Assembly: GCA_007694095.1 (NCBI GenBank)
Contig: RECI01000275.1
Location: 1 to 44,772 of the forward strand
DNA from: Balneolaceae bacterium
GTDB taxonomy: Bacteria; Bacteroidota; Rhodothermia; Balneolales; Balneolaceae
Length of the DNA stretch: 44,772 nt
Reading direction: 5' to 3'
Shown here in pieces: positions 2,590 to 12,322 of this stretch (its first letter is position 1; the number at the start of each line of letters is the position of its first letter). The position numbers were made by a program, and so were the translations under genes. Under the pieces are notes generated by a model that searched no databases, was not told the DNA's origin, and worked only from the letters and a program-made list of their open reading frames with translations.

Positions 2590-2603
2590 TCGTTTAAAAC
2601 AAC

Positions 2604-2629
2604 CTGTCAGCACCTACCGGATCTGACAG
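2604..2629 (+). terminator. weak hairpin after recB
   Basis: Seven-base arms CTGTCAG (2604-2610) and CTGACAG (2623-2629) flank a 12-base loop just after the recB stop. No T-run follows, so a terminator role is only a guess; it may simply be a small dyad. Confidence 0.25.
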
Positions 2630-2636
2630 CGTTGTT

Positions 2637-6177: not shown

Positions 6178-6801
6178 TTAGTTGTATTTCACCGTACATC
6201 CATATGGGGTATTGGTAGTAACTTCCACCGCTTCGCCGTTCATCAGGCTTGTCATGGCGGCAACTACGTAGTTATGAGCCCCTTCAAGGTCGCGGACTCG
6301 GGCAGTTGGTTTATCATCGATTGCGCCATTGTATTCAAGGATTCCATCCGGGTTAATAATATACATCTGTGGAGTCACACGGGCGTCATAAGCACGGCCC
6401 ATTGTTCCGTCTGAGTCGAGAAGAATGGCTGTTGGAGCAGCACCTTTTTCTTCGGCTGTTTTAAGGGTTTCTGCTGGCTCCATATAACCCTGTGTTCCGG
6501 GGGCGGATGAAACTACAGAAAGCCAGACTACACCTTTTTCGGTGTATTTCTTCTGAAGTTCCTGCATGTTATTTCCGTCATAATGCTTTCGGACAAATGG
6601 ACATCCGTGATTCAGCCATTCCAGGATTACCCACTGGCCTTCGTAATCCGATAAGCTATGCATATTTCCATGGGCATCAACAACTGAAAATTCCGGTGCC
6701 GATTCACCAACCACGGCACCGCTTCGGTCGGTATCATTTGCTGAATTAATCAGCAATAGTGATGTAAATATTAAGGTTAAAATGAGGGTTAACTTTTTCA
6801 T
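6178..6801 (-). CDS. periplasmic PRX-like redoxin (thioredoxin-fold peroxidase-like protein)
   Basis: 207 residues with an N-terminal signal peptide (MKKLTLILTLIFTSLLLINS). The AhpC/TSA-redoxin fold begins at GESAPEFSVVDAHG, has the nucleophile region WLNHGCPFVRKHY with a single Cys rather than CxxC, and the cis-Pro region VTPQMYIINPDG. A second Cys lies near the C-terminus (PYGCTVKYN). This pattern fits the PRX-like group of thiol peroxidase or redoxin proteins. It lies 33 bases downstream of dsbD on the same strand, so DsbD could supply its reducing equivalents in the periplasm. That coupling is inferred. The substrate is unknown. Confidence 0.85.
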   Translation of the reverse strand: MKKLTLILTLIFTSLLLINSANDTDRSGAVVGESAPEFSVVDAHGNMHSLSDYEGQWVILEWLNHGCPFVRKHYDGNNMQELQKKYTEKGVVWLSVVSSAPGTQGYMEPAETLKTAEEKGAAPTAILLDSDGTMGRAYDARVTPQMYIINPDGILEYNGAIDDKPTARVRDLEGAHNYVVAAMTSLMNGEAVEVTTNTPYGCTVKYN

Positions 6802-6834
6802 TGGTTTGTGTTGGTTTGGGTTATTGATTGATGT

Positions 6835-9000
6835 TCAAATATCTGCTTGTGTAATGTCTTGTGCGGGTATAAACTGATCCAGTGCATTCAATACAATTCC
6901 GGGTGTAAGAAGTTCCGGCAAAATCATCGGTTCATCCAGTTCACTGCTATAAATCACATAGAGAGGTACTCCGTTCCTGCCAAACGATGCAAGTGCCTGG
7001 GTGATTTCGGGGTTGCGGTTGGTCCAGTCGGCCTTTACCATTTCGAATCCTAGTTCTTCAAAGCGGTCTTTTACCCGGTTTGAACTGAACACAACACGCT
7101 CGTTGGCCTTGCAGGTAATACACCAATCTGCTGTAAAATCGATAAATACATTTTTGCCATCGGCCCTGTGCTGGTTTACCAGATCATTCGAAAAGTCCTG
7201 CCATTCAATGCCATAACTTACAGAGATTCCCGCTTCATTTTGAATCGTTACCGGTTGTGACGCGGCAGAAAACATAAAGCCGGCCAATATGAATAGTGTC
7301 ACGAATCCCCGGCTCACTATACGTGTGCCTGTAGAAATTTCGATTGCCTTCCACCGGTATAAAATCCAGATACCCATGGAGAGCAGCAGCAGGCCGATAA
7401 GCAGCCTTGTGAGGCCATTGACGCCGGTTTGTTGACCAAAAACCCATATCAGCCAGATTGCGGTGGCGAACAAAGGAAATGCAAGGATTTGTTTGAAAGT
7501 TTCCATCCATGCACCGGGTTTCGGCATATATTTCATCAGTACGGGGAAGGATGAAAGCAGTACATATGGAGCCGCCATCCCAAATCCCAGGAAGGCGAAA
7601 ATCAGGAGAGCCGTGGCCGCCGGCAGGGTGATGGCAACGCCGAGTGCCGTTCCCATAAACGGAGCAGTACAGGGAGTTGCAAGAACGGTGGCAAGTATTC
7701 CGCTGAAAAATGAACCGCGCATTCCGCTTCCGGTATTTGCTTTACCTGCAACATTAATGAGCGAATTTCCAATTTCAAAAACCCCCATCAGGCTTAATCC
7801 AAGGCCGAACATCAAAAAAGTCATAAAAGCGATGAATGCAGGGGTCTGGAGCTGGAAGCCCCAGCCAAGTTCCTGTCCGCCGGCCCGCAGCGCAAGTAGT
7901 AACCCTGCAAGTGCGAGGAAAGTGAGCAGAACCCCGAGTCCAAAAACCAGTCCGTGCAATTTCACCATGCGTGGCTGATGCCCGGCCATTTGCATAAAGT
8001 TCATCACTTTGATGGAGAGAATGGGAAAAACACACGGCATCAGGTTCAAAATCAAGCCGCCAATGAAGGCAAAGGCAAGAATCAAAAGGAAACCAGCGGA
8101 AAAAACCGGCATAGAGGAAATGTTGCCGGTAATTATCGATGCATCTCCCAAGCTAACATCCACAACCATCGATCTGATATTGCCGGAATCGTCCCAGCCC
8201 TCCGGTGAATAGATCAGGCCCCAAAGGCGATCGATATCGCCAGATTTATAAGTGGACTTGTGAAGCTGCATGGTAATGGTGTTTCCATCAACCGAAAACG
8301 GCTGAGGGGCGCCATTTTCAATCTCACCTTCTTTCTTTGCAAAGTATCGTATCTCAGAATATCCGGGAATATCAAATGCTTTGTTTGTGAGCGTCAATGT
8401 AGCAGTGTTGCCTTCAAATTCAGCGGTGGCTTCCCAGTAATCGAGTGTAACAGGGAGGTTTTCCCGGGTTTCGGCAAACAGTGGCAGCCACTCTTCGTTA
8501 TACTCCACATCACCGTCGGTAACCAATAACGTAAGTTCAAGATCAGCATATTCAGGAATGCAGACATCCTCGCAAATCAGCCAGTCGGCTTCGGCAAGTA
8601 GTGTGTACTCCTCACCTGGTGACAGGTGGGCCGGCGCAATCGCTTCCATGATATAGAGAATCTGCTCTTTATAGCCGTAGCTGGTCAGCCCGCCAGATAC
8701 ATCCATCCACTTTGGTGTGGGCCATTGTATTTCGCCAATGTTAACATCTTCTTCGTGCAGCCATTCTACCATCATCGGCATTCCGGAATCGCCCGGGTTG
8801 CGATAATAGACATACCAGTTTTCACGAATATCCATTTTAATGCCAATCCAGAAGGGCTGGCCGGGCTGGATGGTAATCTGTTCGGAGATGAGTTCTACAA
8901 CAGCGTTATCGGTTTGAACCGCCTGTGCAGAAATATGAATATTTCCGCTCATGCAGTAAAACAATAATCCCAAAAGTATATAACGAAATGCTGATATCAT
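6835..9000 (-). CDS. dsbD: DsbD-like protein-disulfide reductase (thiol:disulfide interchange)
   Basis: 721 residues. A signal peptide (residues 1-26) precedes a periplasmic beta domain with a Cys pair CEDVC (143-147). A polytopic membrane domain with about eight helices carries the two conserved proline-flanked cysteines, NLMPCVFP (about 317) and TPCTAPFMG. A C-terminal thioredoxin domain has WCITCK (about 630). All three redox pairs of the family are present, so the protein should carry electrons from cytoplasmic thioredoxin to periplasmic clients. The likely client is the redoxin encoded just downstream. Domain order matches DsbD/ScsB; the exact subfamily is not certain. The ATG start gives a good signal sequence. 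Confidence 0.93.
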   Translation of the reverse strand: MISAFRYILLGLLFYCMSGNIHISAQAVQTDNAVVELISEQITIQPGQPFWIGIKMDIRENWYVYYRNPGDSGMPMMVEWLHEEDVNIGEIQWPTPKWMDVSGGLTSYGYKEQILYIMEAIAPAHLSPGEEYTLLAEADWLICEDVCIPEYADLELTLLVTDGDVEYNEEWLPLFAETRENLPVTLDYWEATAEFEGNTATLTLTNKAFDIPGYSEIRYFAKKEGEIENGAPQPFSVDGNTITMQLHKSTYKSGDIDRLWGLIYSPEGWDDSGNIRSMVVDVSLGDASIITGNISSMPVFSAGFLLILAFAFIGGLILNLMPCVFPILSIKVMNFMQMAGHQPRMVKLHGLVFGLGVLLTFLALAGLLLALRAGGQELGWGFQLQTPAFIAFMTFLMFGLGLSLMGVFEIGNSLINVAGKANTGSGMRGSFFSGILATVLATPCTAPFMGTALGVAITLPAATALLIFAFLGFGMAAPYVLLSSFPVLMKYMPKPGAWMETFKQILAFPLFATAIWLIWVFGQQTGVNGLTRLLIGLLLLSMGIWILYRWKAIEISTGTRIVSRGFVTLFILAGFMFSAASQPVTIQNEAGISVSYGIEWQDFSNDLVNQHRADGKNVFIDFTADWCITCKANERVVFSSNRVKDRFEELGFEMVKADWTNRNPEITQALASFGRNGVPLYVIYSSELDEPMILPELLTPGIVLNALDQFIPAQDITQADI

Positions 9001-11115: not shown

Positions 11116-11240
11116 GGGTTGTGAGAGTTTTTAGATTCCGGATCCTCCGGGATAAGATTGCTAATCATTTAATCATTCGTTGTTTGTGCCTTTTCATGCC
11201 TGAGTTAATACCAAAGCTTTTCGCTTTTAAAATACATTCA

Positions 11241-11282
11241 ACTCTGCCAGGAGGCGGAAAAACACCGCCACTCTTGCAGGTT
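11241..11282 (+). repeat. arm-hairpin-arm element, copy 1 (between rsmI and lnt)
   Basis: A 13-base arm ACTCTGCCAGGAG (11241-11253) is followed by a short GCGG/CCGC hairpin (11254-11268) and a 14-base arm CACTCTTGCAGGTT (11269-11282). The two arms resemble each other as direct repeats (ACTCTGCCAGGA against ACTCTTGCAGGT). A second copy with identical arms and a different hairpin lies in the opposite orientation at 12134-12180, so the pair brackets rsmI. CAGGTTT is then repeated in tandem at 11277-11290, again with period 7. Confidence 0.75.
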
Positions 11283-11298
11283 TCAGGTTTCACTTTTT

Positions 11299-11982
11299 TC
11301 ATTCTTCATAATTTTTACCCGCGATTACCACCACAATTTCACCTTTGATGGCACTGCGTGATTTATAATCAGCTAAAATATCAGCGAGTTTTCCCCGGTT
11401 CAGTTCTTCAAACTTTTTGGTCAGTTCGCGCGCAACGCATATCAAACGTTCACCGTCGCTAAATTGGTGCAGGGATTCGAGAAAACGGACAAGTTTGTGC
11501 GGGCTTTCATAAACAACAGCTGTGAGATCAGAATCAGCAATGGCTTGTATACGTGTCTGTCGCCCCTTTTTAGGGGGAAGGAAGCCTTCGAATGTGAACC
11601 GGTCGCATGGAAGCCCGCTGGCAACGAGGGCGGTAGTAAGGGCATCCGGCCCGGGGATTACTTCAACGCGGTGACCTCTTTGATGAGCGGCACGTACAGC
11701 CAGGAATCCCGGATCGGAAATGCCAGGCATACCCGCATCGCTGATAATTGCGATATTCTGTCCGCTGGCAAGCAGATTCATAATATGTTCAACTTTATGA
11801 TGCTCATTATGTTGATGAAACGAAAACGTTGGCTTATTGATTTGATAGTGTTGAAGCAAAACAGATGAAGTACGTGTATCCTCACAGGCAATTTGGTCGG
11901 CTTGTTGAAGAACTTCAACGGCGCGATTGGAAAAGTCGCCAAGGTTCCCGATTGGGGTTGCAACGATGTAAAGTGCTGCCAA
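11299..11982 (-). CDS. rsmI: RsmI, 16S rRNA 2'-O-ribose methyltransferase (C1402)
   Basis: 227 residues of tetrapyrrole-methylase fold. Family signatures are LYIVATPIGNLGDFS at the N-terminus, ACEDTRTSSVLLQHY, then NIAIISDAGMPGISDPGFLAVRAA, VIPGPDALTTALVASGLP and the FEGFLPPKKGRQ block. The enzyme methylates the ribose of C1402 in 16S rRNA at the decoding centre using S-adenosylmethionine. It is somewhat shorter than the E. coli protein, which has a longer C-terminal tail, and ends soon after the core. The gene is bracketed by two copies of one repeat element in opposite orientation, which makes it a discrete block upstream of lnt. Confidence 0.95.
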   Translation of the reverse strand: MAALYIVATPIGNLGDFSNRAVEVLQQADQIACEDTRTSSVLLQHYQINKPTFSFHQHNEHHKVEHIMNLLASGQNIAIISDAGMPGISDPGFLAVRAAHQRGHRVEVIPGPDALTTALVASGLPCDRFTFEGFLPPKKGRQTRIQAIADSDLTAVVYESPHKLVRFLESLHQFSDGERLICVARELTKKFEELNRGKLADILADYKSRSAIKGEIVVVIAGKNYEE

Positions 11983-12043
11983 AAAGAATTATTGTTGATT
12001 AATGTTTCAATGATAATAACAAAACTTGTAGTTTCTTACAGTA

Positions 12044-12078
12044 GTGAAAAGTGAAAAGTGAAAAGTGAAAAGTGAAAA
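12044..12078. repeat. heptamer tandem array, GTGAAAA x5
   Basis: Five perfect tandem copies of GTGAAAA run from 12044 to 12078 with no interruptions. Period 7 would shift any reading frame, so it is not a coding repeat. It sits about 60 bases from the rsmI start. Confidence 0.9.
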
Positions 12079-12098
12079 GCTGGAGCGGTTAGCGAAAG

Positions 12099-12118
12099 TC
12101 CCGACATGCTTGTCGGGA
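12099..12118. repeat. 20-base palindrome
   Basis: The arms TCCCGACA and TGTCGGGA enclose a short TGCT loop. The core is the same as the hairpin in the element at 12134-12180 but lacks its outer arms, suggesting that the hairpin is a module that also occurs alone. Confidence 0.75.
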
Positions 12119-12133
12119 TGAAAAGATCAGGGT

Positions 12134-12180
12134 AACCTGCAAGAGTGCCCCGACATGCTTGTCGGGGCTCCTGGCAGAGT
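12134..12180 (-). repeat. arm-hairpin-arm element, copy 2 (upstream of rsmI)
   Basis: Read on the minus strand, the element is ACTCTGCCAGGAG, then a 20-base hairpin with arms CCCCGACA/TGTCGGGG, then CACTCTTGCAGGTT. Both outer arms are identical over 13 and 14 bases to those at 11241-11282, while the centre is unrelated and longer. Orientation is opposite to that copy, with rsmI between. Confidence 0.75.
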
Positions 12181-12243
12181 TAACCGGACAAATGAAAAGT
12201 CAGACTGTTAATAGAAAATTAAATGAAAAATAATATTTAAATT

Positions 12244-12285
12244 CTGCCAACTGCCAACTGCCAACTGCCAACTGCCAACTGCTAA
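12244..12285. repeat. heptamer tandem array, CTGCCAA x5 plus one variant
   Basis: Five perfect copies of CTGCCAA (12244-12278) are followed by CTGCTAA (12279-12285) and a partial copy. The array ends about 37 bases before the VOC gene, so it lies in its promoter or leader. Confidence 0.9.
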
Positions 12286-12322
12286 CTGCTTTTTCAATTA
12301 TTTAAACAAAATAATTTATCAA

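Follow-up and report, generated by a model that had tools for sequence, protein, structure and literature searches.

The canonical GTAG REPs of gammaproteobacteria, together with BIMEs and REPINs, are short, imperfect palindromes dispersed through their genomes and arranged in part as inverted doublets, and they are associated with a RAYT gene that is flanked by its own repeat (PMC2817692, PMC3116915, PMC3733652). CGTC-tagged REPs, which are likewise palindromic and carry no GTAG, have been reported in Bacteroidetes as well (PMC3733652). In E. coli, REPs are known to lie close to stop codons, within 15 nt, according to work cited in the relevant passages of PMC12306157. Effects on RNA stability or on ribosomes have been proposed for these E. 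coli repeats. The repeats that accompany the RAYTs of Bacteroidetes are reported, in the sections of PMC6006769 considered here, as atypical and as found by hand. Two groups from those sections, compared by description, come nearest to the repeats of interest: TnpA-REP subclass 2.6, mostly from Bacteroidetes, in which the RAYT is flanked by genome-recurrent hairpins lacking GT[AG]G and with a secondary structure that is called weaker, and subclass 2.4, in which the repeats bear GT[AG]G feet.

The window analyzed here, that is, the whole stretch of 44,772 nucleotides from a Balneolaceae bacterium, contains two hairpins beside the gene rsmI. Judging from sequence comparison, both probably belong to a non-GTAG REP family that is mobilized in trans by a divergent RAYT, a reading to which we assign a probability of roughly 0.8.

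Two hairpins beside rsmI

An earlier, sequence-only reading of this DNA had noticed elements at 11241–11282 and, inverted, at 12134–12180 that share identical arms. Coordinates and pairing are both borne out by a repeat finder, which pairs 11240–11253 with 12168–12181 and 11269–11282 with 12134–12147, over 14 nt each and with 100% complementarity (Table 1). In element orientation, the minus strand gives copy 1 as AACCTGCAAGAGT-GGCGGTGTTTTTCCGCCT-CCTGGCAGAGTT, and the plus strand gives copy 2 as AACCTGCAAGAGT-GCCCCGACATGCTTGTCGGGGCT-CCTGGCAGAGTT. The likeness of the two arms of one element as direct repeats, also pointed out then, is real and arises because both are ACCTGNCAGAGT-like; the two arms pair with each other too, and the whole element is therefore a single hairpin. 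Both copies fold into a foot of AAC/GTT, an unpaired A, a 7-bp stem that carries one A-G mismatch, an unpaired A on the opposite strand, and the tip, with folding z values of −3.5 to −5.3 in element orientation.

Table 1. Positions in the window of the two hairpins beside rsmI and of related features
Feature	Position	Strand	Remarks
Copy 1, 43-nt hairpin, unpaired-A family	11240..11282	-	Tip GGCGG-TGTTTTT-CCGCC
Copy 1, 3′ arm (CTCCTGGCAGAGT)	11241..11253	-	
Copy 1, 5′ arm (AACCTGCAAGAGTG)	11269..11282	-	
Copy 2, 48-nt hairpin, unpaired-A family	12134..12181	+	Tip GCCCCGACATGCTTGTCGGGGC
Standalone palindrome TCCCGACATGCTTGTCGGGA	12099..12118	.	No arms; identical to copy 2 tip
rsmI (16S rRNA 2′-O-ribose methyltransferase)	11299..11982	-	ORF; host gene outside element
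Second-family copy (unpaired C), CCTGTCAGCACCTACCGGATCTGACAGCGT	2603..2632	+	13 nt past stop of ORF ending 2589, sense

Copy 1 is sense to rsmI and starts approximately 18 nt past its stop codon; copy 2 sits between the divergent rsmI and a VOC-like gene, and is therefore not 3′ of any gene. The name rsmI is that of the earlier reading and agrees with conservation across the genus, relatives of the gene being present in 27 of 28 genomes. The repeat finder further returned an 18-nt hairpin at 12100–12117 and again at 12149–12166, so the hairpin of the second element does recur alone nearby, as had been claimed for 12099–12118. The window copy of the second family deviates slightly from the pattern used to search for that family. 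Period-7 arrays adjoin copy 2, namely AGTGAAA (5.3 units, 12043–12079) and CTGCCAA (6.6 units, 12244–12289), and AAAAGTG arrays are found directly 5′ of several other copies too (L005, L125, L127).

Hairpin anatomy and covariation

Written out, the element reads RA-CCTGNCAG-a-GT(tip)WCCTGN'CAG-a-GT-Y, an imperfect hairpin in which each strand carries a single unpaired A. Across 107 copies, N and N' are paired in 100 (C-G 58, G-C 23, A-T 15, T-A 4; shuffled mean 41.6), the foot pair −2/+1 is kept in 105 (shuffled 55.5), and the tip pairs c0/c-2 and c1/c-3 are found in 96 and 95 (shuffled 43.7 and 53.9, respectively). None of 2,000 shuffles, a procedure that ignores kinship among copies, matched the observed counts of N/N', foot, or tip pairs. 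Four pair types at N, together with alternating types at the tip and at the foot, where the pair next to the arm is A-T in 65 copies and G-C in 39, are hard to account for without compensatory change. The tip stem itself varies with compensatory changes; the centers of the two elements, which the sequence-only reading had called unrelated, are therefore the varying tip of one hairpin. They are highly varied between copies, as that reading implied.

Arm bases other than N are near-invariant, in part because the search patterns fix most of them, and recognition therefore probably rests on the stem, including the two unpaired bases, with the tip left free. CTGCAAG, seen in the 5′ arm of copy 1, recurs as a variant of CTGCCAG in 13 of the 107 copies. 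Base counts over 25 nt on each side (64 + 43 copies) reveal no GT[AG]G foot beside the hairpin, the only strong signals in the flanks being R-A before the arms and Y-G after them. One tip class in the genome of origin, exemplified by GCGAATGGAATGAGC, shows G-A/A-G mismatches in tandem whose positions are fixed (32 and 24 of the 92 long centers), which suggests sheared G-A pairs.

Copy number and distribution

Copies in the genome of origin (G000) were gathered through pattern searches and from stretches of sequence. An exact search with the complete two-arm pattern gives 3 matches there, a slightly relaxed version gives 37, and a version that leaves the middle base free gives 69 (28 plus, 41 minus), or approximately 64 without overlapping artefacts, as opposed to 0 for a reversed control pattern in the same genome search. 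A genome-wide search with the arms, which the sequence-only reading had called for, thus yields a family that is neither confined to two copies nor built on a single center: the 69 pattern matches have varied centers. Nearly all copies lie outside long ORFs, with one located within a transposase gene. Inverted doublets of the REPIN-like kind, a plus and a minus copy approximately 100–200 nt apart, occur on contigs C54, C82, C177, and others. At one locus (L010, G000:C50:19758-19849), two copies form a 60-bp tandem repeat, the units of which differ mainly in a four-base loop (GATA, GTCA).

Beyond this genome, the exact-pattern family is found in 12 of 28 genomes of the genus with a patchy distribution (41 copies in G005, 38 in G013, 14 in G020), and 0 matches in some close relatives such as G011. 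A narrower pattern searched in 58 relatives has no match outside the genus. Related repeats are nevertheless spread across Bacteroidota: a scan of named genomes, for which arithmetic leads one to expect roughly a dozen chance matches, has many Bacteroidales, Labilibaculum, Ancylomarina, and Balneolaceae records among the matches listed; single matches in other phyla are probably due to chance. Literature searches by sequence words returned unrelated papers only, and those by host and palindrome returned nothing relevant.

Divergent RAYT genes as candidate mobilizers

RAYT genes repeatedly stand beside the hairpin. On a Bacteroidales contig (L256), an ORF at 6205–6981 encoding 258 aa has repeats on both sides and within, in frame, and its only NCBIfam match is to the REP-associated tyrosine transposase (E 7.6e-13). 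A relative of this protein from the genus of the window (G013:C288) is encoded between repeats as well, as is a second such relative, with an in-frame stop (G020:C125). In the genome of origin, contig C115 ends in the start of a RAYT, approximately 100 nt downstream of a copy, and contig C54 opens with the end of a RAYT, which copies closely follow; the two pieces are probably one gene divided by assembly. The motifs N54 H55 x H57 (HxH) and Y144 I H x N P (YIHxNP), the latter with the catalytic-type Y, are invariant in 10 of 10 aligned RAYTs. Full-length members score 46.6–53.4 bits, below the cut-off of 80 for NCBIfam NF047646, although no other family matches, and are therefore divergent RAYTs; the only PDB match is a weak one to E. 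coli TnpA-REP (4ER8, E 0.006).

A RAYT match is present in 12 of 12 repeat-bearing genomes versus 7 of 16 without the repeat (p 0.003, a comparison confounded by incomplete genomes), and some genomes have RAYTs and none of these repeat copies. The proposed link between enzyme and repeat is one of gene neighborhood only. IS200-like transposases (PF01797) were considered as partners and set aside: none of the five in the genome of origin is linked to the repeat, with up to 2 substitutions allowed per arm, except for one that is interrupted by a copy, and PF01797 matches are weak in G007 and G002, where the repeat is present. IS200-like genes of the genome of origin (loci L037 and L036) are flanked by palindromes of their own, for example, GGGCTGAAGCCCATACC, that are separate from the unpaired-A family.

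The genome of origin contains another RAYT, intact-looking and located at C11:423-1058 (L289 coordinates), with flanking hairpins CCTGTCAGCATGCCGG...CCGGCTTCTGACAGCGT. These share the design of the first family, with an unpaired C replacing the A, and the family they define has 25 exact-pattern matches in the same genome. That a single genome contains an unpaired-A and an unpaired-C family, each with an adjacent RAYT of its own, offers a natural test of how these enzymes choose a hairpin.

Arms, tips, and their possible exchange

The modular insertion of palindromes between conserved arms, as envisaged by the sequence-only reading, survives in part. Copies are many, their arms are conserved, their centers are varied, and their tips may be shared or stand alone; insertion between arms as the primary event does not fit, given that the tip pairs covary and that an empty site lacks the whole hairpin. 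What may possibly occur, and can be entertained tentatively, is that arms and tips are separable, with tips swapping between REP families through recombination or template switching. Identical tip classes, namely, CCGGTGCTTTTCCGG, GCGAACGATAGTGAGC, short GC-loop-GC, and CCCGACA/TGTCGGG, are common to both arm families, and the 18-bp palindrome also exists on its own. At one site (L009), G000 and G018 have a common tip in different arms; upstream of rsmI, tips appear to differ between G000 and G011 in a diverged alignment. However, just these two sites are informative, the second through a diverged alignment, and with tips this short and palindromic the same pattern could have arisen by convergence or by repeated insertion at one site.

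The palindrome CCCGACANNCNTGTCGGG is found in 19 places in the genome of origin, mostly outside these arms. It stands alone at 12099–12118 and on contigs C27, C101, C127, and others. Beside rsmI its context is GCTGGAGCGGTTAGCGAAAGTCCCGACA, which recurs in G018 and possibly represents another repeat family.

Mobility and placement after stop codons

Comparison with relatives points to a mobile element. Following a gene on contig C7, a 43-nt hairpin of the genome of origin corresponds to no more than CC in G011, with both flanks aligning. Elsewhere, a copy present in one species is missing from another, and most sites tested are empty or have other content in the nearest relative. A further copy has been inserted in an IS200-like transposase gene (L038 ~1708-1770; G000:C132:4911-4954), the parallel gene in L036 being uninterrupted. 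Downstream of rsmI, the nearest relative has no matching element, its spacer being too different to demonstrate precise insertion, and G011 carries, apparently at the position of copy 2, an element that has diverged and whose tip is shorter.

Copies in the genome of origin mostly lie shortly past the 3′ end of a gene. Within 50 nt past a stop codon, 41 copies are sense and 3 antisense when all copies of the placement analysis are considered, with ORFs called mechanically. Taken separately, sense copies outnumber antisense ones by 32 to 2 in the genome of origin (p 7e-8) and by 12 to 1 in other genomes of the genus; the second family has 10 against 0, and a wider set 17 against 4. Copy 1 follows this trend, at 18 nt from the rsmI stop codon, whereas copy 2, which lies between divergent genes, departs from it. 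Such a strong orientation bias needs more than transposition by itself, and it opens a role at the 3′ ends of mRNAs to direct testing.

It is accordingly worth asking whether the hairpin is primarily a functional RNA, a 3′-UTR structure that is bound by protein or acts on mRNA ends and is selected after stops, with the RAYT responsible only for its spread. The 32-to-2 sense bias speaks in favor of this rather unlikely alternative, as do two copies at corresponding sites in G018 with tips that are changed yet still paired (L076/L314, L114/L328). The same is true of the non-standard pairs at six tip-stem positions of the sense strand, where G-T outnumbers A-C by 27 to 6, although this excess equally fits single-stranded DNA. 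Against it stand the many sites that are empty or different in the nearest relative, the absence of the exact pattern from close relatives such as G011, and the lack of a matching Rfam family, none being found at E 0.1 in nine loci and one chance match in the window.

Intrinsic transcription terminators, which would likewise place a sense hairpin just past stop codons, are very improbable: the 3′ flank is G-rich at positions 2–9, with no T-run after the hairpins, and the sequence conservation of the arms far exceeds what a terminator needs.

Integron attC sites are folded, have unpaired bases and a variable tip, and carry fixed GTTRRRY/RYYYAAC core sites. The present hairpins share the shape, but a relationship to attC, or a role as a site pair for inverting rsmI, is hardly credible: the alternation of A-T and G-C at foot pair −2/+1 means that there is no fixed GTT/AAC core, the copies are dispersed and not in a cassette array, and rsmI has an unchanged orientation in the relatives read. 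The inversion of the rsmI block that had been suggested earlier is thus not supported, the next and upstream genes keeping their relation to rsmI wherever the relatives' flanking sequence extends to them; inverted arms of only 14 bp, belonging to a repeat that is dispersed anyway, say little in favor of inversion.

A proposed mechanism

For mobilization in trans by a divergent RAYT, the favored reading, we envisage an HUH/Y1 enzyme, encoded by a gene flanked by the repeat, that would move the hairpins as single-stranded DNA. Its target would be the conserved stem together with the two unpaired bases (CTGNCAG-a-GT), which it would recognize, cut, and join, accepting nearly any tip. Copies would survive chiefly in positions immediately 3′ of genes, and as RNA they would there form a stable 3′-UTR hairpin that may be tolerated or even useful through effects on RNA stability or ribosomes. 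A bolder and quite speculative extension is a Bacteroidota-wide class of REPs in which the RAYT would read nothing but a fixed stem containing two unpaired bases in symmetric positions, tips would evolve or swap freely between families, and copies would be inserted or retained in sense orientation right after stops as mobile 3′-UTR modules.

Comparison with known systems

In the broad sense, the present repeats are very probably REPs: they are dispersed, extragenic, imperfect palindromes that form inverted doublets, and their RAYT is flanked by the repeat (a REPtron). With the canonical GTAG REPs, BIMEs, and REPINs they share all of these traits (PMC2817692, PMC3116915, PMC3733652); in contrast, they have no GTAG foot, are longer (approximately 43–60 nt), and combine a fixed stem and one unpaired base per strand with a freely varying tip. 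Unlike the CGTC-tagged REPs (PMC3733652), they show no CGTC tag in flank base counts and have a linked transposase. Proximity to the 3′ side of stop codons is common to the E. coli REPs, the orientation of which is not discussed in the relevant passages of PMC12306157, and to the repeats described here, where the sense bias is strong; no description of such a bias for REPs was found in the portions of the literature consulted.

Lacking GT[AG]G, the repeats differ from those of TnpA-REP subclass 2.4 and resemble those of subclass 2.6, a likeness of description and not of sequence, and one that is qualified by the strong secondary structure observed here. Orientation to stop codons and variation of the tip, both seen in the present family, are not described for subclass 2.6 in the passages of PMC6006769 covered. 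As far as these sources extend, this is very probably a known kind of system with a hairpin shape unusual for it, in which the anatomy and placement of the repeat were not found described. The comparison thereby supplies a precise, searchable anatomy for one atypical RAYT repeat of the Bacteroidetes.
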